The notes beneath the pieces are model-generated. The model searched no databases, was not told the origin of the DNA, and saw nothing but the letters and a program-made list of their open reading frames with translations. Below are positions 6,661 to 39,725 of a stretch of 42,276 bases of DNA, in pieces; position 1 is the stretch's first letter; each line of letters begins with the position of its first letter. A program made the position numbers and the translations under genes. This DNA comes from a virus. The DNA is taken from positions 1 to 42,276 of IMG/VR virus record IMGVR_UViG_3300042475_003318; one strand, given 5' to 3'.

Positions 6661-7421
6661 AAGCGTGCATTGTTTACCTAGTGGATACCAGTGATGTTGA
6701 GAATTTCAAGAAAAGCCTGGAGTCTCTGTCAAGATCAAAAGCCCTGTCCAAGTATCCAATCTACGCATTCTACGAGGATACTCTTAGCAAGGAGATTCGC
6801 CAGCAGATCTCAGAGGTCTATGACGTGAGGTTCTCATTGGTTGAGTTCGTGCTTCCAAAGTATCCGCCTGAGATTCAATGCCAGATCAAGGAGGACTTCT
6901 ATGTGGATGTCACACCCTATCCATTCACCATGGGCTACCGACACATGTGTCGCTTCTTCTCTGGCGAGATCTTCAAACGTTGGGAACTGGCTGACTACGA
7001 CTATGCCTTGAGACTGGACACCGATTCATTCTTGCTTGAACCCATCAATGATGTGTTTGAAGCCATGGCTGATGAGAAAGCTGTGTACGGCTACAGGATG
7101 GAGAACGGCGATCACCCCACCTGCTATGCTGGGTTCTATGACACTTTCAAGGAGGCCGTTGAGTCACTGGGTTTTGTCTACCACCCACCTGACGAGATCG
7201 GCAAGGTCTACTACAGCAACTGGGAGGTGTTCGACCTGAGATTTTTCCGCAGTGAGTTGCACACCAGGGTGTACAAACACATTGACATGAGCGGTGGCAT
7301 CTTTATTCACCGATGGGGTGATCACATCTTTCGGTACACCTTTCTGAGACAGTTTGACTGCCGCGTCAAACAATTCCTGTTCAACTATGGTCACGGTCAC
7401 GACACTTTTCTGAAGCCATGA
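6657..7421 (+). CDS. GT15-like (KRE2/MNT1-type) alpha-mannosyltransferase homologue
   Basis: A 254-residue protein with the landmarks of glycosyltransferase family 15: MGYRHMCRFFSGEIFKRWEL leading to the metal-binding YALRLDTDSFLL, then YYSNWEVFDLRFFRS and MSGGIFIHRWGDHIFR. In fungi GT15 enzymes are Golgi alpha-1,2-mannosyltransferases. Here there is no membrane anchor, so a soluble cytoplasmic enzyme using GDP-mannose or a related donor is the best guess. It is coupled by ATGA to both the GT2-like gene before and the radical SAM gene after. I am confident in the fold and moderately so in the family. Confidence 0.7.
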   Translation: MKACIVYLVDTSDVENFKKSLESLSRSKALSKYPIYAFYEDTLSKEIRQQISEVYDVRFSLVEFVLPKYPPEIQCQIKEDFYVDVTPYPFTMGYRHMCRFFSGEIFKRWELADYDYALRLDTDSFLLEPINDVFEAMADEKAVYGYRMENGDHPTCYAGFYDTFKEAVESLGFVYHPPDEIGKVYYSNWEVFDLRFFRSELHTRVYKHIDMSGGIFIHRWGDHIFRYTFLRQFDCRVKQFLFNYGHGHDTFLKP

Positions 7422-8869
7422 CATTTATCATTCCTCCATCACCCTTTCTCCTTGACGAGAGGGTCTTCATGTCACTTGGCATCCTCAAGGTTGCTGCAGT
7501 GGCCAAGCAGCTTGGCTACACTCCACACGTGTTGGACCTCTCTGGCGTAAGGAACTACATGGACGTCATCGATGACGTTCTCAAGTCCACCAAGCCCAAC
7601 AGCATCTTTGCCATTACTGCCACCACACCTCAGTTCCCCTCTGTCTTTGAGATTTGTGGCAAGCTAAGAGCCCATGGCCACAGAGTCATACTGGGTGGGC
7701 CACATCCCACCATGGTGATGAGTGCAGACAAGAGAGGTCTGGCAAGAGCCCGGATGCATGCCCAGCGTGTTTTGGCTTGCGCAGACACAGTAGTGACCGG
7801 CGATGGTGAATTGGCCTTCAAACAGTCACTGGAGATGACTGAGAGAGGTGGTGGCTGGTTGGACGCTGATGATCCCAAGACTGGTCTCTTCATGACCCAT
7901 GACCAGTTCAATGACAGTCCATGGCCTGCCAGAGACCTGGTTGACGTAAGCTCCTATCACTATGATATCAGTGGCAAGAGGTCACTCTCAGTGATTGGTC
8001 AGCTGGGTTGTCCCATGGCCTGTGCATTCTGCAGTGGCCGTAACTCTCCCACATTCAGACGCATTCGCCTTCGCAGTGCCACGAATGTGGTTGCTGAGAT
8101 CGAACACCTTGTCAAGGAGTATGGCATTGAGGGTGTGATGTTCTATGATGATGAGCTCAACATCAACAATGCCTTTACTGAGCTCATGACCTCCCTTATC
8201 GACATGCAAGACAGGTTGGGCAAGGGTCTGGCATTTCGTGGCTTTGTCAAGAGTGAGCTCTTCACTGATGCCCATGCCAAGCTTATGGCACAGGCTGGAT
8301 TCAAGACCCTGCTCTCTGGCTTTGAGAGTGGCTCACCAAGAATTCTCGAGAACATCAACAAGAAGGCCACTGTGGACGACAACACCAGGTGCTTGGACGT
8401 GGCCAGAAAGTACGGCATCCACATGAAGGCCCTTATGTCCATCGGTCATGCTGGTGAGACTGAGGAAACTGTGGACGCCACGCGCCAGTGGATTCTCAAG
8501 GTCCAACCCGAGGACTTCGATGTGACCATCATCACAGTCCTGCCTGGTTCACCTTACTTTGACGCTTCTGTCCAGGTTCCACACCCACTCGGTGAGTCTC
8601 ACTGGGTTTACACGGCCAAGAATGGAGACAAGCTCTACTCAGTCGACATCGATTACTCCAAGACCATGGACTACTACAAGGGTGTTCCAGGCGAGTATGT
8701 GTCATTTGTCTACACCGACGACCTCAGTCCCAAGCAGTTGGTCTCGCTTCGCGACGCCATGGAGAATGAGGTCAGGCCAAAGCTTGGTTTGAAGCCACTG
8801 CAACTGGTCTCGGCCAAGAACTACGACCACTCGATGGGTGCTATCCCGGCTCACATCATGAAGGCGTGA
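7418..8869 (+). CDS. Radical SAM protein with N-terminal B12-binding-like domain
   Basis: A 483-residue protein of the RimO/HpnJ-like superfamily layout. Residues 1-130 form a Rossmann-like domain with VILGGPHPT and TGDGE; the cobalamin motif DxHxxG is not evident, so binding of B12 is uncertain. The 4Fe-4S cluster motif is GCPMACAFC (Cys198, Cys202, Cys205). VMFYDDELNIN, LLSGFESGS and HAGETEET are later radical SAM barrel landmarks. It should generate a 5'-deoxyadenosyl radical and modify a sugar, lipid or cofactor. Sitting inside a run of glycosyltransferases with ATGA coupling, it may modify a glycan or lipid carrier. Confidence 0.8.
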   Translation: MTFIIPPSPFLLDERVFMSLGILKVAAVAKQLGYTPHVLDLSGVRNYMDVIDDVLKSTKPNSIFAITATTPQFPSVFEICGKLRAHGHRVILGGPHPTMVMSADKRGLARARMHAQRVLACADTVVTGDGELAFKQSLEMTERGGGWLDADDPKTGLFMTHDQFNDSPWPARDLVDVSSYHYDISGKRSLSVIGQLGCPMACAFCSGRNSPTFRRIRLRSATNVVAEIEHLVKEYGIEGVMFYDDELNINNAFTELMTSLIDMQDRLGKGLAFRGFVKSELFTDAHAKLMAQAGFKTLLSGFESGSPRILENINKKATVDDNTRCLDVARKYGIHMKALMSIGHAGETEETVDATRQWILKVQPEDFDVTIITVLPGSPYFDASVQVPHPLGESHWVYTAKNGDKLYSVDIDYSKTMDYYKGVPGEYVSFVYTDDLSPKQLVSLRDAMENEVRPKLGLKPLQLVSAKNYDHSMGAIPAHIMKA

Positions 8870-12780: not shown

Positions 12781-13659
12781 ATGACTGGACGCCTTGGCCT
12801 CTGCTGCATGTGGGACAACGATCGCACCTTCCCACTTCGAACCATGACCCTCGCCAGCTACAAGAAAGCTGGCTCTGACGGTCCTCAGAAACTCGCAGAG
12901 GTTGTCTTGCACAATGTCAGTCAGATCCGTGCAATGATCAACCTCTGCGAGCAGCGTGGCTGGAACTACCGCATTCCTCAGACGGTGTTCCCTCTCATGG
13001 GCATGCCAGGTTTTGAGCTCAAGCCACACGAACTTCCGCTGTGGCCACTTATCCAAAAGGTGTTTGCTGGTATCGCGAATGAACGTGGCCGTGTTCGTCT
13101 GTCCATGCACCCCACGGCCTTCTGCATCCCTGGCTCTGACAACCCCAAGACAGTCACAGCAGCTCTCTCAGAGTTGGAGTTGTCCTCTCAAATTCTTGAC
13201 CTCTGTGGTGCTCCACGTGGCCACGAATCGCCCATCAACATTCACATGGGCTGTTCCACCGGCGGCCTGGAAGCCACCATGGATCGTTTCAAGGCCAGTC
13301 TCGATCGTATGTCTGGCCCAGTTCGCCACCGGTTGGTTCTGGAGAATGACGACAAGGGCGAGTGGAATACGTACACTCTCTTTCAGCTCGGTTGGAAGGG
13401 CCCTATCACATTCGACTACCACCATCACATGTGCAATCCTGGACAATGGTCAGAATACCAGGCTTTCTCACTGGCCCTGTCCTCGTGGGGTGCGGTTCGT
13501 CCACTCTTTCATTACTCCGAACCTGACCCCACCAATTCTAACCATCGTGCCCACTGCGAGATGCCCACTCGCCGTGCCAACGACTATGGTGCCTTGTTCG
13601 ACCTTGACATCGAGCTCAAGGGCAAGAGCAAAGCCATCGAAGCCTACGAATCCTTGTGA
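12781..13659 (+). CDS. uvsE: UV DNA damage endonuclease (UvsE/UVDE family)
   Basis: A 292-residue TIM-barrel repair enzyme. Family motifs visible in order: RLGLCCMW at the N-terminus, RLSMHPTAFCIPG near 102, INIHMGCSTGG near 153, RLVLENDDKGEW near 182, and FDYHHHMCNPGQ near 210, which supply the His, Glu and Asp ligands for the metal cluster. The enzyme nicks DNA 5' of UV photoproducts and abasic sites, starting alternative excision repair. Length matches the bacterial family. A promoter lies immediately upstream with almost no untranslated leader. Likely function: protects phage DNA from UV, suggesting a sunlit habitat. Confidence 0.85.
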   Translation: MTGRLGLCCMWDNDRTFPLRTMTLASYKKAGSDGPQKLAEVVLHNVSQIRAMINLCEQRGWNYRIPQTVFPLMGMPGFELKPHELPLWPLIQKVFAGIANERGRVRLSMHPTAFCIPGSDNPKTVTAALSELELSSQILDLCGAPRGHESPINIHMGCSTGGLEATMDRFKASLDRMSGPVRHRLVLENDDKGEWNTYTLFQLGWKGPITFDYHHHMCNPGQWSEYQAFSLALSSWGAVRPLFHYSEPDPTNSNHRAHCEMPTRRANDYGALFDLDIELKGKSKAIEAYESL

Positions 13660-14462: not shown

Positions 14463-14894
14463 ATGAGTAGTGCTACTGTTGACGAAAAACAAGCTTACCG
14501 TAAGGCCTGGCTTAAGGCCTATCGTGAGGCCAACAAGGAAAAAATCTCAGCTAGGGAAAAGGCCTGGCGTGAGGCCAACAAGGAGAAAACATCGGCAAAG
14601 AATAGGACCTATCGTGAGGCCAACAAGGAGAAGATATTGGCAAGAGAAAAGGCCTATCGTGAGGCCAACAAGGAAAAAATCTCAGCTAGCCAGAAGGCCT
14701 ATCGTGAGGCCAACAAGGAAAAAATCAGAGATAAAAATAGAGTTCATCTGAAGACCTACTATGAGGCCAACAAAGATAAACTTAGAGCTAGACAAAGGAC
14801 GAGATCTATGGACTTGTGGAATGGTTGCAAAAGAGCAAAAAATCTCATGAGAATGATGGCCCTTTCTGAATTTTGTTTATATAGCAAAACTTAA
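14463..14894 (+). CDS. Lys-rich YREANKEK-repeat protein, copy 1
   Basis: A 143-residue, strongly basic protein built of about six imperfect 14-residue units of the type KAYREANKEKISAR. The period suggests a long charged helix. The tail KRAKNLMRMMALSEFCLYSK is nearly identical in copy 2 at 14918. Similar repeats occur in phage proteins attached to HNH nucleases, but no HNH motif is present here. A DNA- or RNA-coating role is possible because of the charge; unproven. Confidence 0.65.
   Translation: MSSATVDEKQAYRKAWLKAYREANKEKISAREKAWREANKEKTSAKNRTYREANKEKILAREKAYREANKEKISASQKAYREANKEKIRDKNRVHLKTYYEANKDKLRARQRTRSMDLWNGCKRAKNLMRMMALSEFCLYSKT
14826..14890 (+). repeat. ~60-bp direct repeat shared by the two YREANKEK genes
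   Basis: The 3' ends of the two repeat-protein genes (14826-14890 and about 15437-15500) are almost identical in DNA, with a run of about 39 identical bases around the codons for LMRMMALSEFCL. This marks a recent tandem duplication or ongoing recombination between the genes. Confidence 0.75.
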
Positions 14895-14917
14895 GACAGA
14901 AAGTGTCCACCTGACTT

Positions 14918-15511
14918 ATGCCTATTAAATGTCCTGAAAAACGTAAGGCCTACCATAAGGCCTATCGTGAGGCCAATAAGGAGAAGCTACGCATAAAGGA
15001 CAGTGCCTTCCGTAAGATCTACTATGCGGCCAACAAAGAGAGGATTTCGGCCCAGCAAAAGGCCTATCGTGAGTCCAACAAGGAGAAAGTACGATCTCAA
15101 CGTAAAGCCAATTATAGGGCCAATAAGGAGAAGCTCTTAGTGAAGAGGCGGGCCAACAAAGATAAGAGGAGATCCTATGCTAAAGCCCATTATAGGGCCA
15201 ACAAGGAGAAGATATCAGCAAAGAATAGGGCCTATCGTGAGGCCAACAAGGAAAAAGTCAGAGCAAGTAAAAAGGTCTATCATAAGGTCTACAAGGACAA
15301 GATCATAGCACGGGTAAAAACCTGGCGTGAGGCCAACATGGATAAGATCAGGGCGCGGTCACGAGTGAGGTACATGATCGACGTGGAGAAGAGCCGGGAG
15401 AAGAGCCGTAAGTGGACCTATGCCTGGTACCATGCGCGCAAAAGAGCGAAAAATCTCATGAGAATGATGGCCCTTTCTGAATTTTGTTTACACAGCAAAC
15501 CCGTCGCTTGA
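14918..15511 (+). CDS. Lys-rich YREANKEK-repeat protein, copy 2
   Basis: A 197-residue paralogue of the protein at 14463, with about ten more varied 12-14-residue units (YREANKEK, YRANKEK, YYAANKER). It keeps the same conserved tail RKRAKNLMRMMALSEFCL. It is more diverged within the repeat region than in the tail. The composition (over a third Lys/Arg) is that of a nucleic-acid-binding or charged-helix protein. Function unknown. Confidence 0.65.
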   Translation: MPIKCPEKRKAYHKAYREANKEKLRIKDSAFRKIYYAANKERISAQQKAYRESNKEKVRSQRKANYRANKEKLLVKRRANKDKRRSYAKAHYRANKEKISAKNRAYREANKEKVRASKKVYHKVYKDKIIARVKTWREANMDKIRARSRVRYMIDVEKSREKSRKWTYAWYHARKRAKNLMRMMALSEFCLHSKPVA

Positions 15512-20721: not shown

Positions 20722-21181
20722 GGGCCTGTACTGGTTTCGATTGGCAGATGCCGATTGTAGACCACATGCCGAGGATGATGGTTGGCCTCGTTAAAACTAC
20801 CCATTAAAACATCAACTGCCAATACTGCTGTTGACGCGGAAGTCGATGCTAGCGTGGAGAGCCTCCTCGCCCAGGCGGACTACATCATCAATAATGCTGA
20901 TGAGTTCCTCACTGAGGGCGGCGCTCTGGTTGCTGAGACCGAAGCTGCTGTGGCTTAAGCCACACCGTCCACCCCTGGATGCTCGCTAAGGGGTGTGGGC
21001 GAAAATTGCGAGACACGATCAATCAGGCGTGCTGGTTGACTTGATCACTGGGCTCAGTGGTAAAAGCACAGCCTAGCGGACATCGGCTAAGCTGTGCTAA
21101 TTCACAGATGTCTAAAGCATGTGATTCACGTCTCTTTTAGTCCCTGCCAAGACGAGAGTTCGATTCTCTCCAGGTCCACCA
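20722..21181 (+). ncRNA. ssrA: tmRNA with an unusually long (46-residue) tag
   Basis: The 5' end GGGCCTG pairs with 3' CAGGTCC, giving the G3-U70 wobble that alanyl-tRNA synthetase recognises; encoded CCA ends at 21181. The 3' T-arm GAGAG-TTCGATT-CTCTC is intact. ATGCCGAGG...GGCCTCGTTAAAAC matches the first pseudoknot region of bacterial tmRNA. The tag frame would resume at GCC 20818 (Ala-Asn) and run 46 codons to TAA 20956, ending ETEAAVA. The stop sits in a GTGGC-TTAA-GCCAC hairpin, as in helix 5. The tag has ten acidic residues and no Lys or Arg. It should rescue stalled ribosomes and mark the product for proteolysis. Confidence 0.9.
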
Positions 21182-21185
21182 TTTA

Positions 21186-21283
21186 GTTGAGTGTGGCGGA
21201 AACGACAGACGCTAAGGATGCAGGAATGCACCGAGGAGACCCTTAAGTGGTATCCATGCTAGGTAAAAATCCCACCACTCGAC
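21186..21283 (+). ncRNA. tRNA-like element, Leu-type D-arm, aberrant anticodon region
   Basis: Right after the tmRNA. GTTGAGTG and CACTCGAC pair over 8 bp as an acceptor stem, and TGGCGGAAACGACAGACGC is close to a tRNA-Leu D-arm. But the anticodon stem TAAGG/CCTTA encloses 23 nt instead of 7, the T-loop reads GGTAAAAATCC rather than GGTTCNANNCC, and no CCA follows. It is not a functional tRNA by these criteria. It may be a degraded tRNA or a separate structured RNA. Confidence 0.45.
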
Positions 21284-21286
21284 TTT

Positions 21287-21314
21287 GGCCCACCTCGAGG
21301 TGGGCCTTCTTTTT
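21287..21314 (+). terminator. Strong rho-independent terminator
   Basis: GGCCCACC-TCGA-GGTGGGCC followed by TTCTTTTT. It closes the tmRNA/tRNA-like transcription unit. Confidence 0.9.
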
Positions 21315-28769: not shown

Positions 28770-29903
28770 ATGTCAGACAACTTTGATGTTGAGGTACCCG
28801 ATATCCCCTTACCCGAGGAGGAGAAGACCATAGAGATTGAAGATACCTTTCAAGGTGCCTTCAAGTTTGCCGTTGTAGGCGCTGGTCAAGGTGGTGGTCG
28901 TCTGGCCCAAACTTTCTGGAAGATGGGGTACAAGCGTACCGCCGTCATAAACACCTCTGAGCAGGATCTGGCCACCATTGACATGCCAGCTGACAGAAAA
29001 CTGTTGATTGGCACTGGCGGCGCTGGCAAGAATCCGGCTGTGGCGGCCTCACTCATCAAGGACAAAAAGGAAGACGTCTTGGATTTCATGCGTCGTTCCT
29101 TTGGTCCAGGCTTTGACCGCATATTCTGCTGTGCATCGGCTGCTGGCGGCACTGGATCCGGCACCTTGTTGCACCTGGTGGATGTAGCCATTGAGCTGCA
29201 ACAGTCATTGAAAACCAGCAGCCAAAAAGTTGGCGTGGTACTGGCTCTGCCAAAGATCTCTGAGGGCCAGAAGCTGAATGCTAATGCCTACAACGTTCTT
29301 CGTGATGTATTTGCTTTGGTCGAGAAGGGCATCGTTTCTCCTCTGATCCTTGTAGACAATGAGAAGATTTCTACCCTCTATCCAAAACTCGCTGTGGACC
29401 CATTCTGGGACACTGCCAATCGTAGTCTTCTCTCCCTATTCCACCTCTTCAACCTCACGGCCATTCGTGAGAGTCGTTACACATCATTCGACCCATCAGA
29501 CCTTAAGACGATTCTCGATTCTGGACTGATCACCTTCGGTGCAACTCCAGTGGAGAATTGGAAGGATGCCACGGGCATCTCGTTTGCCATTAGAAACTCA
29601 CTGAAGAAGAACATCCTCAGTGGTGGTGTCTCAATTGAGACTGGCAACACAGCTGGTGCAATGATCATTGGGTCAGAGGATGTCTTGAATGAGGTTCCGC
29701 AGGTCAATCTTGACACCGCATTTGAGCAGTTGACCAGAATTCTTAAGCCTGGAAACACTGTTCATCGTGGCATCTATCGTGGCAATAAACCTGGCTTGGT
29801 GGTCTACACCATCATTGGTGGTTTGGGACGACCGACTGACAAGTTGGCTGAACTTAGAAAGTTTGGCAATGTGATTGACTCAGCTGAACCCTGGCCAAAA
29901 TGA
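28770..29903 (+). CDS. FtsZ/tubulin-like GTPase
   Basis: A 377-residue protein. VVGAGQGGGRLAQ near residue 35 is the first nucleotide loop. AAGGTGSGT (residues 124-132) is the tubulin/FtsZ signature. SFDPSDLKTIL (Asp241, Asp244) matches the catalytic T7 loop of FtsZ, so GTP hydrolysis on polymerisation should work. It has a ~30-residue acidic N-terminal extension and lacks the FtsA/ZipA-binding tail of bacterial FtsZ, so it is not simply a host division protein. It may form filaments that position or move phage DNA or capsids, or interfere with host division. The next gene starts at its stop (ATGA). Confidence 0.85.
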   Translation: MSDNFDVEVPDIPLPEEEKTIEIEDTFQGAFKFAVVGAGQGGGRLAQTFWKMGYKRTAVINTSEQDLATIDMPADRKLLIGTGGAGKNPAVAASLIKDKKEDVLDFMRRSFGPGFDRIFCCASAAGGTGSGTLLHLVDVAIELQQSLKTSSQKVGVVLALPKISEGQKLNANAYNVLRDVFALVEKGIVSPLILVDNEKISTLYPKLAVDPFWDTANRSLLSLFHLFNLTAIRESRYTSFDPSDLKTILDSGLITFGATPVENWKDATGISFAIRNSLKKNILSGGVSIETGNTAGAMIIGSEDVLNEVPQVNLDTAFEQLTRILKPGNTVHRGIYRGNKPGLVVYTIIGGLGRPTDKLAELRKFGNVIDSAEPWPK

Positions 29904-31348: not shown

Positions 31349-32289
31349 AAGGCATAATCCTTCTTGGTGGTTTTGACGACCATCAGAGGTCAAAACTAGC
31401 TGAAGCCTTCAAAGAGGCTGGCGCGACAGTGATTCGTGCTCATGGACGAAAGTCCATGTACAGCAAACCTTTCGTACACTTCACCGCAGCCCTGAGGTTA
31501 GCCTCACGCTTAAGCAAGACCAAGCTGGTGGTAGTAACCTCCAGTTGGGTCGACATTCTCAGTAGAGTTCTGGGCGCTTCTAGCATCATGGAGATGGGTA
31601 CTTCCAAGCACAAGTACCAAACCAAGATGCTTAACTCTTGGATCGTGACCAGCCGAATCTTGGATCGAGTGGCCCTGAGGTATGGTGCGTTGTATTTCTT
31701 GACACAAGGAGCCACCGAACTTTCTGACGCTGCATTCAGAGGTTTTTCAAAAAGACCTGGCGTCTTGACCTGGGATCGAAATATCGCCAGCGTTGAGGAC
31801 ATTATCCTCACTCTCTCCATCAATCGTTGCGTCCAGCCCGACGGTCTGGACTCTATGAACCTCAATGGCAATATCGCGGACGCTGACTACTTACTCGTCG
31901 GCGACCAGATAAATCCGAAATTTAGTCATTTCAACCACTGGCCTTTCCATGATGATAGTGCCTCGGCTTTTTTCATCACCTCGATCTTGCAAGAATTGGG
32001 TGTGCCTGAGGAGAAAATCGCCTGGTCAAACGCAAACCACGAGAAAGATTCGTCAGTCATCAAAAAATTCCTGGGACGCAGAAACGCCCAAGTCATTGCC
32101 CTTGGAAGGGAAGCCACCAAGGGATTGCAATCCCTTGGCATAACTCCAGAGTTCTCTATACCGCACCCTTCCTGGGCCAAGAGATTTAATAAACGCGATG
32201 AGTATCTCCAATCATTATCGGCAATTTTCCAGAAAGACAATTCATTCCGCATACAGCTATCTCCTAAAGAGTGTACTCTATCACCCTGA
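31345..32289 (+). CDS. Two-domain protein with C-terminal uracil-DNA-glycosylase-like domain
   Basis: A 314-residue protein from GTG 31345. Residues ~175-300 read as a UDG-superfamily fold: YLLVGDQINPK near the N-terminal strand, SNANHEKDSSVIKKFL in the middle, AQVIALGREATKGL, then IPHPSWAKRF, equivalent to the His-Pro-Ser loop that inserts into DNA. The N-terminal ~170 residues form an alpha/beta domain (ILLGGFDDHQRSKLAEAF) I cannot assign. It may remove uracil or a modified base. It overlaps the next gene by 92 nt in another frame. Confidence 0.5.
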   Translation: MKGIILLGGFDDHQRSKLAEAFKEAGATVIRAHGRKSMYSKPFVHFTAALRLASRLSKTKLVVVTSSWVDILSRVLGASSIMEMGTSKHKYQTKMLNSWIVTSRILDRVALRYGALYFLTQGATELSDAAFRGFSKRPGVLTWDRNIASVEDIILTLSINRCVQPDGLDSMNLNGNIADADYLLVGDQINPKFSHFNHWPFHDDSASAFFITSILQELGVPEEKIAWSNANHEKDSSVIKKFLGRRNAQVIALGREATKGLQSLGITPEFSIPHPSWAKRFNKRDEYLQSLSAIFQKDNSFRIQLSPKECTLSP

Positions 32290-32992
32290 GTACAAAGTTG
32301 CCACGAGAGGCAAGACGGTCTATGAGATCACTGACGTCTCATTCCGTGTGGACCATCCCATCTCAGAGTCGATCATCACCTCAGACCCTGAGAGAAACAA
32401 GGTCTTGGCTGACTACTTCTCAAAGGAGAAAGTTGTCTATGACTCGATGACGAATGACGCCAAAGAGTTTGGCAAAGCCAGCAAGTTCTGGCTTAACCTG
32501 GCCAATCCAGATGGAACAGTCAACTCAGCCTATGGCCACTTGATCTGGCAGGTTCCTTCACTTGGTCACCCAGAATTTGAGACAGAGGTAACGGGCAGTG
32601 CGACCTTGAGAAGCCCATGGGAGTGGGTGATTCACTCACTCAAGAAAGACATCAACAGTCGCCAAGCTGTGATGCCATTCGCCATGCCTCACCACTACTG
32701 GGACGGCAACAAAGACCAAGTCTGCACTCTTCACGGCGTATTTCAAATTCGCAACAACCAGCTGAATCTCAGCATGGTGATGCGATCCAATGATCTTGTT
32801 CGTGGTCTGGCATATGACATGCCATGGTTTGTCCACATTCAAGACAGAATGGTCGAGGCTCTGAAGCCTGTCTACCCATCACTGACTAAAGGCCACTACA
32901 CGCACACAGCTCACAGTGCCCACATCTATGAAGATGACGTGGAAAAGGTGCTGCGCATGCTTGGCACTTCGTCAGCAGCTGACCAAGAGTAA
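32198..32992 (+). CDS. Thymidylate-synthase-fold protein with altered active site
   Basis: A 264-residue protein starting inside the previous gene (ATG 32198). YGHLIWQVPS, then NSRQAVMPF (phosphate-binding region), QVCTLHGVFQIRNNQLNL, MRSNDLVRGLAYDMPWFV and KGHYTHTAHSAHIYE follow the thymidylate synthase / dCMP hydroxymethylase order. The usual catalytic PCH reads TLH: the catalytic Cys position is Leu, though a Cys lies two residues before. It may act on a pyrimidine nucleotide by a different mechanism, or be a non-catalytic homologue. The N-terminal 30 residues share DNA with the upstream C-terminus. Confidence 0.6.
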   Translation: MSISNHYRQFSRKTIHSAYSYLLKSVLYHPEYKVATRGKTVYEITDVSFRVDHPISESIITSDPERNKVLADYFSKEKVVYDSMTNDAKEFGKASKFWLNLANPDGTVNSAYGHLIWQVPSLGHPEFETEVTGSATLRSPWEWVIHSLKKDINSRQAVMPFAMPHHYWDGNKDQVCTLHGVFQIRNNQLNLSMVMRSNDLVRGLAYDMPWFVHIQDRMVEALKPVYPSLTKGHYTHTAHSAHIYEDDVEKVLRMLGTSSAADQE

Positions 32993-33092: not shown

Positions 33093-34064
33093 ATGCAAAC
33101 GCTGCTCCGCAAGATTGGTTTCGAAGTTGAGTTTACCTGCCCAGTCAATCCTCTTCGTGAGATTGAACGTGTGCTTCGACGTATGAACTGGGAAGTCGTG
33201 CATGCTGGCCACTATCGCCACAGCACTGGATCCCACTGGGACCTTAAACTTGACAGTTCATGTGGATTTGAGATTGCCTCACCTGTCATTGAGTCCTACG
33301 AAGGTCTGGTGAAAGCTGTTAAGATTGTTGACATCATCAAGCGTGCTGGTGGCAGTGTCAACAACAAGTGTGGTCTTCATGTCCATGTTGACATGAATGG
33401 CGTCACCCCTGAGAAGTTTGAACGTGTCATGCGTTTCATGTCCAGGTACGAAAACGCTTTCTTTCTGTTGGCTGATGAGTGCCGCCAGAACAACCAGTAC
33501 TGTAAGAAACTTGATGGCCAAGCCAAGGCCATCCAAACGGATCCTGCAAATTTCCGTAGAGCTTGGAACTACAAGCACTATTGGCTCAATGGCACTCACT
33601 TGGCAGGCCAAGGCACATTGGAGTTTCGCCTTATGGCATCTCACCTGGAATCTGAGTACCTCGTGGGTTGGGTGCTCTTCCTCCTCCATGCAGTTGACTA
33701 CCTTCTCAATGGCAAGCACGTCAGCTGGGGCCAAGCCAAGTGCGCTAGTGACAGGGATTTGCTTCAGACCATGCTCGGCCAAGCTGGTTTCTATGGGCCG
33801 TTCAATCAGAGGGACAAGCCCACTATTGTGGCTGCACGTAAGTGGGCCCTGTCAACCTACACAGCCAAAATTGGTCAGTCTGACCGTAGAATCAAGGCCC
33901 CAAGTATCCAGCAACTTGAAGCCCTAGCTGAGCAACCTGTGGCCCAGGCCATTTCACTGGATGAGGCTTTTGGCCCTGCTCCAGCTGCGGATGCAGGGTC
34001 ACTCTTTCCTCAACCCACTCCTCGTCCTCGAGTCCGTCGTCCACGGGTCCACACCCTTCGCTAA
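33093..34064 (+). CDS. Amidoligase-family protein
   Basis: A 323-residue protein. IGFEVEFTCP at the N-terminus (GxExE), KCGLHVHVDMNGV near 94 and GTLEFRLMASHLES near 178 are the three motif blocks of the ATP-grasp-like/glutamine-synthetase-fold amidoligases (amidoligase_2 type). The C-terminal ~60 residues are Pro/Arg-rich and probably disordered. Such enzymes form amide or isopeptide bonds on peptides or cell wall material; substrate unknown. It is leaderless and under the operator at 33017. Confidence 0.75.
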   Translation: MQTLLRKIGFEVEFTCPVNPLREIERVLRRMNWEVVHAGHYRHSTGSHWDLKLDSSCGFEIASPVIESYEGLVKAVKIVDIIKRAGGSVNNKCGLHVHVDMNGVTPEKFERVMRFMSRYENAFFLLADECRQNNQYCKKLDGQAKAIQTDPANFRRAWNYKHYWLNGTHLAGQGTLEFRLMASHLESEYLVGWVLFLLHAVDYLLNGKHVSWGQAKCASDRDLLQTMLGQAGFYGPFNQRDKPTIVAARKWALSTYTAKIGQSDRRIKAPSIQQLEALAEQPVAQAISLDEAFGPAPAADAGSLFPQPTPRPRVRRPRVHTLR

Positions 34065-36857: not shown

Positions 36858-39725
36858 ATGTCTACGCTGGCTATTGACCGTGTATTCTCAAACGCAACCA
36901 CAAGCCCATATGATGAGATCCCTTGGAGTAAACGAACTGTTGTAATCAACGATGATAGTGGCAAGCCACTCTTCGAGCAGAAGGATGTTGAGGCCCCAGC
37001 TTCTTGGTCTGATCTCGCGGTCAAGATCGTGGCTAGCAAGTACTTCTATGGTACGCATGGAACGTCTGAACGTGAGAATTCTGTTCGTAAACTCATCCAT
37101 CGCGTAGCTAGAACGATTGCTGATTGGGGTATTGATTCTGGCTATTTCAATGCGGAAGACGGTGAGGTTTTCTATCAGGAACTTTCTGCTCTGTGCCTCA
37201 ACCAGTACGGCGTTTTCAACTCGCCAGTGTGGTTCAACGTTGGCCTGTGGCACCAATACAAGGCCGGCATCAACGGAACTTCAGGAGGTTGGGCCTACAA
37301 CTACGAGACAGGCCAAGTTGAAAAGCAGACTCTGCCATATCTTCGTCCTCAAGGTTCAGCCTGTTTCATCCAAAGTGTGGATGACAACATGGACTCGCTG
37401 ATGGCTCTGGCTGCGTCTGAGGCGATGCTCTTTAAGTTTGGCTCTGGTACTGGCACTGACCTGAGCACTATTCGTTCCTCTAAGGAGCGTCTCTCTGGCG
37501 GTGGTCGTCCATCTGGTCCGATGTCGTTCCTGAAAGTGTATGACCAAGTGGCCAACACCATCAAGTCCGGTGGCAAGACACGTCGTGCTGCGAAGATGAA
37601 CACACTTCGTGATTGGCACCCTGACATCGAGGAGTTTATTGTGGCCAAGATGAAGGAGGAGAAGAAAGCCCACGCTCTTATCGATGCTGGCTATGATGGC
37701 TCCTTCAACGGTGAGGCTTACGGCACGGTGGCTTACCAGAACGAGAACCTCTCAGTTCGTGTCAGTGACGAGTTCATGAACGCGGCCATCAACGGTGAGA
37801 AGTGGCCGACACGAGCGGTGACAACTGGTAGTGTGGTTGAGGAGAAAGACGCCTCCAAACTTCTCGACCAGATCGCTGAAGGAACTTGGGTTTGTGGTGA
37901 CCCTGGTTTGCAGTACGACGGAGCCATTCAACGTTGGCACACTTGCAAGGGAACAGAGCCAATCCACTCCACCAACCCATGCTCAGAGTATATCTTCCTC
38001 AACAACACAGCCTGCAACCTGGCCTCGTTGAACCTGATGAAGTTCCGCACTGAGGACGGTCAGTTTGACATTACTAAGTTCAAGGCTGCGGCTCGTATCT
38101 TCATTATTGCCCAAGAGATTCTGGTTGATTCGGCCTCCTATCCAACCAAGCTTATCGCTGAGAACTCTCACATCTTCCGTACACTGGGTCTTGGCTACGC
38201 AAATCTTGGCTCACTCATCATGAGCTATGGTCTGCCTTACGATTCTAAAGAAGGCAACACAATGGCTGGTTCGTTGGCGGCCCTTATGACTGGTGTGGCT
38301 TACACCACGTCAGCTGAGATCGCCTCAGTCAAGGGACCATTCTCTGGGTACAACGATGCCCGTTGCTCTCACATTCAGAAACCTCTGGCTCCCTCCAACA
38401 AGGAGTCAATGCTTGAAGTGATTCGTGCTCACAGCGCAGCCGCTGATAAGCTCGACTCGTCACTGAAACTTCCGGCTAATCTTAGCGATGTCATTGCAGA
38501 GGCCAAGTCTTCATGGAAGTCTGCCTATCAGGAGGGTCTGAATCACGGCTATCGTAATGCTCAAGTTACTGTGGTTGCTCCCACAGGCACCATTGCCTTC
38601 ATGATGGACTGTGACACCACAGGCATTGAACCGGACATCGCCCTGGTGAAGTACAAGACACTTGCCGGTGGCGGTCACTTGAAGATTGTCAACAACACAG
38701 TGCCGACTGCTTTGAAGCAGTTGGGTTACTCCAGTGCTGACATTGCCCGTATCACTGATTACATCTTCAAGCACGATACTATTGAAGATGTTGAAGGTGA
38801 GACAAGCGGCTTGCTGGCTTACCACCTTCCTGTGTTTGACTGTGCTTTCAAGGCAGCCAAAGGCCAACGCTCCATTCCTTGGATGGCCCACCTCAATGTG
38901 ATGGCCGCTGTTCAACCGTTCATCTCTGGAGCCATCTCCAAGACAGTCAACATGCCAGGCAATGCCACGGCAAATGACATTCGCAACGCGTACATTGAGG
39001 CCTGGAAACTTGGTCTGAAGTGTGTGGCTATCTATCGCGATGGCTCCAAGCGTTCTCAGCCTCTTAACACATCGTCAAACGCAGACACGGCTGATACCTC
39101 TGCTTTGAAAGCGCTGGAGGCCAAAGTGGCTCAGTTGGAGTCAGCCCTGCACCAGGTCACAACCAAGGGCGGACCATATCGTGAGCGTCTGCAAGACACT
39201 CGTGAGGCCCTTACCCACAAGTTCAACATCAGTGGCCAAGAGGGTTATGCCACTGTGGGTCTCTACGATGACGGACGCCCCGGTGAACTCTTCATCCAAA
39301 TGGCCAAGGAGGGTTCTACTATGGGTGGCCTGATGGACGCCATTGGAACCTTGACTTCAATCTCCTTGCAGTATGGAGTGCCTCTTCAGACGTTGGTTGA
39401 CAAGTTCTCACACCAACGTTTTGAACCTCATGGTTACACTAGTAATCCGAAGATCAGAACTGCAAGTTCAATCATCGACTACATCTTCCGTTGGATGGAA
39501 AGCGAATTTCCGGACAATGGAAAACATGAGAAAACCTTTGATGTCAGCTCGGGTTCTGCCCAGAAACCCGCGCCTGTTACAATGGTTGAAGGCGCAACCA
39601 AATCCGCCAGCACTTCCACATACAAGAGCGGCCAGTGCTGCACGACGTGCGGCAGCTCCAATGTTCAAATCAGTGGCACATGTGCAACATGCACTAACTG
39701 TGGCACCAGCCTGGGTTGCTCATAG
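36858..39725 (+). CDS. nrdJ: Vitamin B12-dependent (class II) ribonucleoside-diphosphate reductase
   Basis: A 955-residue NrdJ. SACFIQSV holds the first redox Cys (169), STNPCSEYIFLNNTACNLAS (from residue 371) holds the active-site Cys and Glu, and VVAPTGTIAFMMDCDTTGIE near 573 is the substrate-binding loop. PFISGAISKTVNMP is another strongly conserved block. The ~200-residue C-terminus ends with CCTTCG...CATCTNCG, a zinc-ribbon/redox tail. The enzyme reduces ribonucleotides with adenosylcobalamin and needs no oxygen, giving the phage its own dNTP supply. It does not need NrdB. The start lacks an SD sequence. Confidence 0.95.
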   Translation: MSTLAIDRVFSNATTSPYDEIPWSKRTVVINDDSGKPLFEQKDVEAPASWSDLAVKIVASKYFYGTHGTSERENSVRKLIHRVARTIADWGIDSGYFNAEDGEVFYQELSALCLNQYGVFNSPVWFNVGLWHQYKAGINGTSGGWAYNYETGQVEKQTLPYLRPQGSACFIQSVDDNMDSLMALAASEAMLFKFGSGTGTDLSTIRSSKERLSGGGRPSGPMSFLKVYDQVANTIKSGGKTRRAAKMNTLRDWHPDIEEFIVAKMKEEKKAHALIDAGYDGSFNGEAYGTVAYQNENLSVRVSDEFMNAAINGEKWPTRAVTTGSVVEEKDASKLLDQIAEGTWVCGDPGLQYDGAIQRWHTCKGTEPIHSTNPCSEYIFLNNTACNLASLNLMKFRTEDGQFDITKFKAAARIFIIAQEILVDSASYPTKLIAENSHIFRTLGLGYANLGSLIMSYGLPYDSKEGNTMAGSLAALMTGVAYTTSAEIASVKGPFSGYNDARCSHIQKPLAPSNKESMLEVIRAHSAAADKLDSSLKLPANLSDVIAEAKSSWKSAYQEGLNHGYRNAQVTVVAPTGTIAFMMDCDTTGIEPDIALVKYKTLAGGGHLKIVNNTVPTALKQLGYSSADIARITDYIFKHDTIEDVEGETSGLLAYHLPVFDCAFKAAKGQRSIPWMAHLNVMAAVQPFISGAISKTVNMPGNATANDIRNAYIEAWKLGLKCVAIYRDGSKRSQPLNTSSNADTADTSALKALEAKVAQLESALHQVTTKGGPYRERLQDTREALTHKFNISGQEGYATVGLYDDGRPGELFIQMAKEGSTMGGLMDAIGTLTSISLQYGVPLQTLVDKFSHQRFEPHGYTSNPKIRTASSIIDYIFRWMESEFPDNGKHEKTFDVSSGSAQKPAPVTMVEGATKSASTSTYKSGQCCTTCGSSNVQISGTCATCTNCGTSLGCS

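Follow-up and report, generated by a model that had tools for sequence, protein, structure and literature searches.

The tmRNA gene and its tag reading frame

The DNA analyzed here (the window) is a linear virus fragment of 42,276 bases from IMG/VR. A tmRNA (ssrA) gene of 460 nt was located on the plus strand, where the Rfam model RF00023 (curated cut-off, 47 bits) is matched over its full length (model positions 1–374) with an E value of 1.9e-33. An RNA of this kind releases ribosomes that have stalled and marks the incomplete proteins they carry. The features of the gene, each with its basis, are as follows.

20722–21181 (+): tmRNA (ssrA); RF00023, 89.1 bits; fold z-score, -4.0; ARAGORN negative
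20722–20728 (+): 5' strand of the acceptor stem, GGGCCTG, with the G3-U70 pair; sequence
20765–20806 (+): PK1, with stem 1 CCGAGG/CCTCG and stem 2 TGATGG/CCATTA; complementarity of stem 2 in relatives
20818–20958 (+): tag reading frame with resume codon GCC, 46 codons, and stop codon TAA; Rfam alignment, frame, and a context common to phage L004
20836–20838 (+): alternative resume codon GCG, which would give a 40-residue tag; the family starts mostly with A(E/D) 7–8 residues before LLA
20863–20907 (+): conserved tag core LLAQADYIINNADEF; core in 30 distinct tags, with synonymous variation far above non-synonymous
20944–20955 (+): C-terminal AAVA, a putative ClpX-type degron; position and hydrophobicity, with relatives ending mostly in LAA
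20949–20964 (+): helix 5 hairpin TGTGGC/GCCACA, with the stop codon in the loop; Rfam alignment
21153–21181 (+): T-arm, 3' acceptor strand, discriminator A, and encoded CCA; sequence and Rfam
21287–21306 (+): intrinsic terminator-like hairpin followed by a T-run; scan

The acceptor stem is formed by GGGCCTG and CAGGTCC with the G3-U70 pair, the T-arm and the encoded CCA are present, and PK1 precedes the resume codon. An earlier note on this DNA had described a real phage tmRNA with intact tRNA-like ends, and both descriptions were borne out. Of the two programs that it proposed, the tmRNA covariance model gave the complete match at 20722–21181. ARAGORN reported only four tRNAs in the window and missed the tmRNA, which Rfam confirms; the miss was traced to a limit on tag length that is described below.

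The tag frame encodes ANTAVDAEVDASVESLLAQADYIINNADEFLTEGGALVAETEAAVA, a peptide of 46 residues with 10 Asp/Glu and no Lys or Arg. The stop codon TAA (20956–20958) is found within the loop of helix 5, as in ordinary tmRNAs, and the tag has a hydrophobic end. The frame of 46 codons from GCC 20818 to TAA 20956, the ten acidic and absent basic residues, and the hydrophobic AAVA end had all been given correctly in the earlier note. The one doubt on the window tag concerns the exact resume codon. Codon 7 of the frame reads GCG GAA and matches the usual A(E/D) start of the family described below; the tag would have 15 residues ahead of LLA from GCC and 9 from GCG, relative to 7–8 in the family. GCC 20818 is preferred over GCG 20836 for two reasons: its spacing of 11 nt after PK1 agrees with that in ordinary tmRNAs, and its context, ACATCAACTGCCAA(C/T)ACT, recurs in phage L004. 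A model fit that moved the resume codon or the stop to give a tag of ordinary length had been named as grounds for abandoning the claim of an exceptionally long tag; the stop was confirmed, and the GCG alternative would still give 40 residues. At either length (46 or 40), this tag is the longest seen here. An origin of the extra length by tandem duplication of EGGALVA/ETEAAVA was considered and rejected (shuffle p 0.5).

Directly 3' of the tmRNA is a tRNA-Leu-like sequence (21186–21284, plus strand; GAGTGTGGCGGAAACGACAGACGC...) that was accepted as a tRNA by neither ARAGORN nor Rfam and is possibly a decayed tRNA ahead of the terminator. The stretch from 21182 to 21290 is 2.8% different from that in viral contig L003. 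For the terminator-like site at 21287–21306, approximately one such site would be expected by chance in the stretch scanned. Elsewhere the window encodes sugar-modifying enzymes, a B12-binding radical SAM protein (7418–8869), a UvdE-like UV endonuclease (12781–13659), a thymidylate synthase-like protein (32198–32992), and an amidoligase (33093–34064). Adjoining genes at 14463–15511 (plus strand) contain internal and mutual DNA repeats that are 70–92% alike.

A family of related tags in viral tmRNA genes

The same tag is encoded by two other viral contigs, L002 (identical to the window over 12 kb) and L003 (a mosaic, mostly 93–98% alike). More phage contigs, with tags of 30–36 residues, were obtained by scanning for a pattern taken from the 5' region of the tmRNA; in two of them, L037 and L087, the middle of the tag aligns with that of the window at scores (76 and 70, respectively) far above those of shuffled sequences. 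Using the three related tags (window, L037, and L087), a protein-level profile search of IMG/VR returned 48 viral loci/contigs. Among the 45 further loci scanned, 44 exceed the Rfam cut-off for tmRNAs; at the remaining one, L488, the contig stops some 120 bases past the match. The tag reading frame is confirmed because a search with the peptide only landed in tmRNA genes essentially every time. At the level of sequence, this confirms that the window tag is not a chance frame, since about 47 other viral contigs have tmRNAs whose tags belong to the same peptide family. The search for the tag in related phage contigs that the earlier note had recommended was thus positive, with identical tags in L002 and L003 and the family in 48 contigs.

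The family comprises 30 distinct tags of 32–46 residues, encoded by contigs as large as 225 kb; the window and its near-relatives have 46 residues, and the remaining members have 32–35. In the general layout, A(E/D/N) at the start is followed by a few residues, most of them acidic, and then by the core LLA(E/Q)AEYIFNNADEF, an acidic linker, and an end of small hydrophobic residues. The A(E/D) start is located 7–8 residues ahead of LLA in most tags, and the length of the linker between the core and the end varies among the relatives. Asp and Glu make up 300 of the 1,022 residues in total, and Lys and Arg are absent throughout. The tags end in Ala in 26 of 30 cases and in LAA in 16. The window tag contains the core motif as LLAQADYIINNADEF in the tmRNA tag frame, lacks Lys and Arg, and with 10 Asp/Glu exceeds the 8 by which the family was defined.

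The values of pS and pN for the core were determined to be 0.69 and 0.12, respectively, and those for the core outside the main search pattern were 0.69 and 0.09 (pN/pS 0.13). These figures are somewhat flattered, since the search demanded part of the core, whose conservation is thus partly ascertained, and the tblastn filter favours close relatives. For 425 of the 435 pairs of family tags, pS is greater than pN. The mean identity of the RNA bodies is 62% in the 5' part and 52% in the 3' part. The comparison indicates that selection acts on the tag peptide rather than on the RNA sequence, because the core varies mainly synonymously while the RNA bodies are only 52–62% identical. The lack of any tag difference between the window and L003 was rejected as proof of selection, because other genes there are equally alike in these mosaic genomes. 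Between the window and L003 (17863–23223) there is strong mosaicism, with adjacent genes alternating between ~99% and 80–87% identity.

The modest Rfam score and the failure of ARAGORN to find the gene might be taken to mean that the window tmRNA is degenerate, or a decoy that is unused for tagging. However, the structural elements are all intact, the tag peptide is under strong selection, and stem 2 of PK1 is complementary across the relatives, both phage and bacterial, where it has been swapped for different complementary pairs. We consider a degenerate or decoy tmRNA to be scarcely tenable.

ARAGORN was calibrated with a bacterial tmRNA (L312, from Omnitrophota) whose tag was lengthened by codon insertion. 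The full tag was reported for lengths of up to 33 residues, a truncated tag at 34–39 residues, and nothing at 43 residues or more. The window tmRNA is missed because full tags are reported only up to 33 residues. With the 48 viral tmRNAs that have such tags, ARAGORN returned the full tag for 4, a wrong or shortened tag for 9, and nothing for 35. Surveys based on ARAGORN are largely blind to this long-tag class, and their figures for tag length and for the frequency of phage tmRNAs are probably biased low. The statement in the earlier note that most bacterial tags have about 8–35 residues therefore holds only in part: the range is in part a software artefact, and Omnitrophota tags have 20–38 residues.

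Phage tmRNAs are already known, including those of huge phages (PMC7162821, PMC9004378, PMC4131195), and in one survey 402 of the 18,146 phage genomes had a tmRNA (PMC9004378). When INPHARED was searched at the DNA level, neither the tmRNA nor half of the window gave a match, and at the protein level two tags used as queries retrieved no family member; a PDB search gave nothing meaningful. The open-licence literature searched was found to contain no account of the tag family, the ARAGORN ceiling, or the long tags in Omnitrophota. The tag family is common to dozens of viruses and was previously unnoticed.

The phage, its probable host, and other tags

L087, a 211-kb phage that has the core, has a tubulin in common with the window (61% identity over 368 aa) and other proteins as well. 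The window is therefore very probably part of a large phage that encodes a tubulin. The tubulin/FtsZ-family protein of the window (28770–29903, plus strand) has relatives of 56–64% on the large viral contigs L480, L482, and L087, and no match in INPHARED. A ribonucleotide reductase is encoded at 36858–39725 (plus strand). Its closest annotated phage relatives are B12-dependent, and it is 46% identical to that of a 485-kb uncultured phage. At the DNA level, the gene matches one from Verrucomicrobiota with 68% identity over 1.2 kb, and the score is 408 bits for Verrucomicrobiota versus 189 bits for Omnitrophota; this likeness is a hint of either the host or gene transfer.

In bacterial genomes the 5' tmRNA pattern is found mainly in Verrucomicrobiota, at about four fifths among the matches listed. 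In a tree of tmRNA bodies, the window groups with L003, L004, and L087 (support 0.87), and the other long-tag phages are placed near Verrucomicrobiota on long branches. From the 5' pattern, the reductase DNA, and this tree, we infer that the host is probably a member of Verrucomicrobiota or of a neighbouring phylum. An Omnitrophota host had also been considered from tag similarity, which is weak after multiple testing. When part of the window was compared with Omnitrophota genomes at the DNA level, the matches listed included tRNA and ribonucleotide reductase homology and no clear spacer match.

Like the window tmRNA, the one-piece tmRNAs of bacteria (RF00023) have a tRNA-like domain with G3-U70, PK1 with the resume codon about 11 nt behind it, a small-hydrophobic tag end, and the stop codon in helix 5. 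They differ in tag length, which is 46 residues in the window, 9–20 in the Verrucomicrobiota tags read here, and up to 38 in the Omnitrophota genomes read here (L303, L309–L396; mostly 20–33, range 20–38). Tag length alone is not phage-specific, because Omnitrophota tags reach 38 residues. The Omnitrophota tags are of several unrelated-looking types, such as ADKLSWSNRSFGPVALPLAA and ANTQVSRLGTFVAPSLAARPMFVPAFGLN, and some lack an AA end.

These tags raise the question of whether the long acidic tag is a habit of the host lineage, with the phage copying the tag style of its host and nothing about it being specific to phages. Apart from their length class, some Omnitrophota tags share a (L/I)(L/I)AxAxxI start with the window tag, and some are core-like, e.g., GEDSILAQANEIVEPIFSGQPVLA and ADKLIAQANEIVEPIFAGEPVLA. 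However, these tags are chromosomal, many contain Lys or Arg, and they lack the NNADEF half. Their similarity to the window tag is weak, with a best shuffled p of ~0.006 that is uncorrected for ~50 comparisons. The type of tmRNA body and the ribonucleotide reductase fit Verrucomicrobiota better, with their shorter tags, and the core pattern, in its strict form without mismatches, is absent from 388 Verrucomicrobiota genomes. On balance, a host-lineage origin of the tag style appears rather unlikely.

Acidic tags are also encoded by other phages. The tags of Mycobacterium phage Asterius (ATDTDATVTDAEIEAFFAEEAAALV) and Gordonia phage GodonK (AEADVVVSDSDIAEIEAYANEAALV) have 25 residues, of which seven are acidic and none basic. 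The cluster C mycobacteriophage Asterius and GodonK are therefore like the window in having phage-encoded acidic tags without Lys or Arg, but these tags lack the LLAxAEYIFNNADEF core and end in ALV, and the hosts are actinobacterial. In GodonK (MK620899, 85159–84631, minus strand) the tmRNA is an unannotated gene of 529 nt above the Rfam cut-off, and its tag resembles that of cluster C mycobacteriophages. The suggestion in the earlier note of a phage trend agrees with these two tags and with the family of 30 related tags; judged from the tags compared, length combined with acidity is a recurring phage theme.

Proposed function of the tag

Phage infection is expected to yield broken mRNAs and stalled ribosomes. 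We favour, by a modest degree, a working one-piece phage tmRNA whose conserved acidic core helix would serve as a docking site for a partner and whose hydrophobic end would lead to a ClpXP-type host protease. During infection, the tmRNA would be charged with alanine by the host alanyl-tRNA synthetase and would use host EF-Tu and host SmpB, the latter being presumed because no SmpB was found on the 29 phage records searched (mostly fragments, gathered before the later tag-family contigs). It would free ribosomes that had stalled on broken mRNAs and would append its own tag of 46 (perhaps 40) residues. This tag may be divided into four parts: a short variable acidic N-terminus, the amphipathic helix LLA(E/Q)AEYIFNNADEF, an acidic linker, and the small-hydrophobic end.

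The family core is amphipathic (p 0.04) and was modelled as a helix both with and without relatives, with a pLDDT of 93 in residues 11–20, although AlphaFold is over-confident by default for short Ala-rich helices. Because these 15 residues are conserved away from the terminus across divergent phages, the core is probably a binding site for a partner, which may be a protease adaptor, a chaperone, or a phage protein. The proposed logic resembles that of the E. coli ssrA tag with SspB, where an inner docking site is combined with a terminal ClpX signal; that tag is used modularly by SspB and ClpXP (PMC8512704). The E. coli tag differs in having 11 residues, in being unstructured, and in sharing no homology with the window tag, for which the adaptor is hypothetical.

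Core conservation might instead reflect an action of the nascent chain, such as pausing or folding in the exit tunnel, that tunes trans-translation. The tags are similar in length to the ribosomal exit tunnel and selection is at the peptide level, but the linker from the core to the end varies in length among the relatives, and we regard an action in the tunnel as very improbable.

The AAVA end, which is LAA in most relatives, would send tagged proteins to a ClpXP-type host protease. It had been proposed in the earlier note that the tag steers proteins to a different protease or fate, and a tag this long and strongly acidic is indeed unlike the 9–11 residue tags usual in Verrucomicrobiota. The family does not support diversion, whether for protection or for another fate, since nearly all relatives have the usual small hydrophobic C-terminus, with Ala at the end of 26 of the 30 tags and LAA at the end of 16, as fits a ClpX-type signal. 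Nor was a protease candidate found on the phage records searched (mostly fragments, again from before the later family contigs): the single ClpP-like gene is located on a prophage-like contig outside the family. Diversion from the usual protease is accordingly judged to be improbable, and, from the records searched, a phage-encoded SmpB or ClpP was rejected as the partner.

Returning to the core as a docking site, we tentatively propose that large phages of one lineage may have adapted trans-translation as a phage-specific means of labelling in which the core helix recruits a dedicated phage or host partner. If so, this partner would control the timing and location of the degradation of rescued, incomplete proteins in the course of infection. 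The tag peptide is conserved across divergent phage tmRNAs and does not occur among the bacterial tags read here, and its core offers a concrete handle on why phages carry tmRNAs, namely what binds it.
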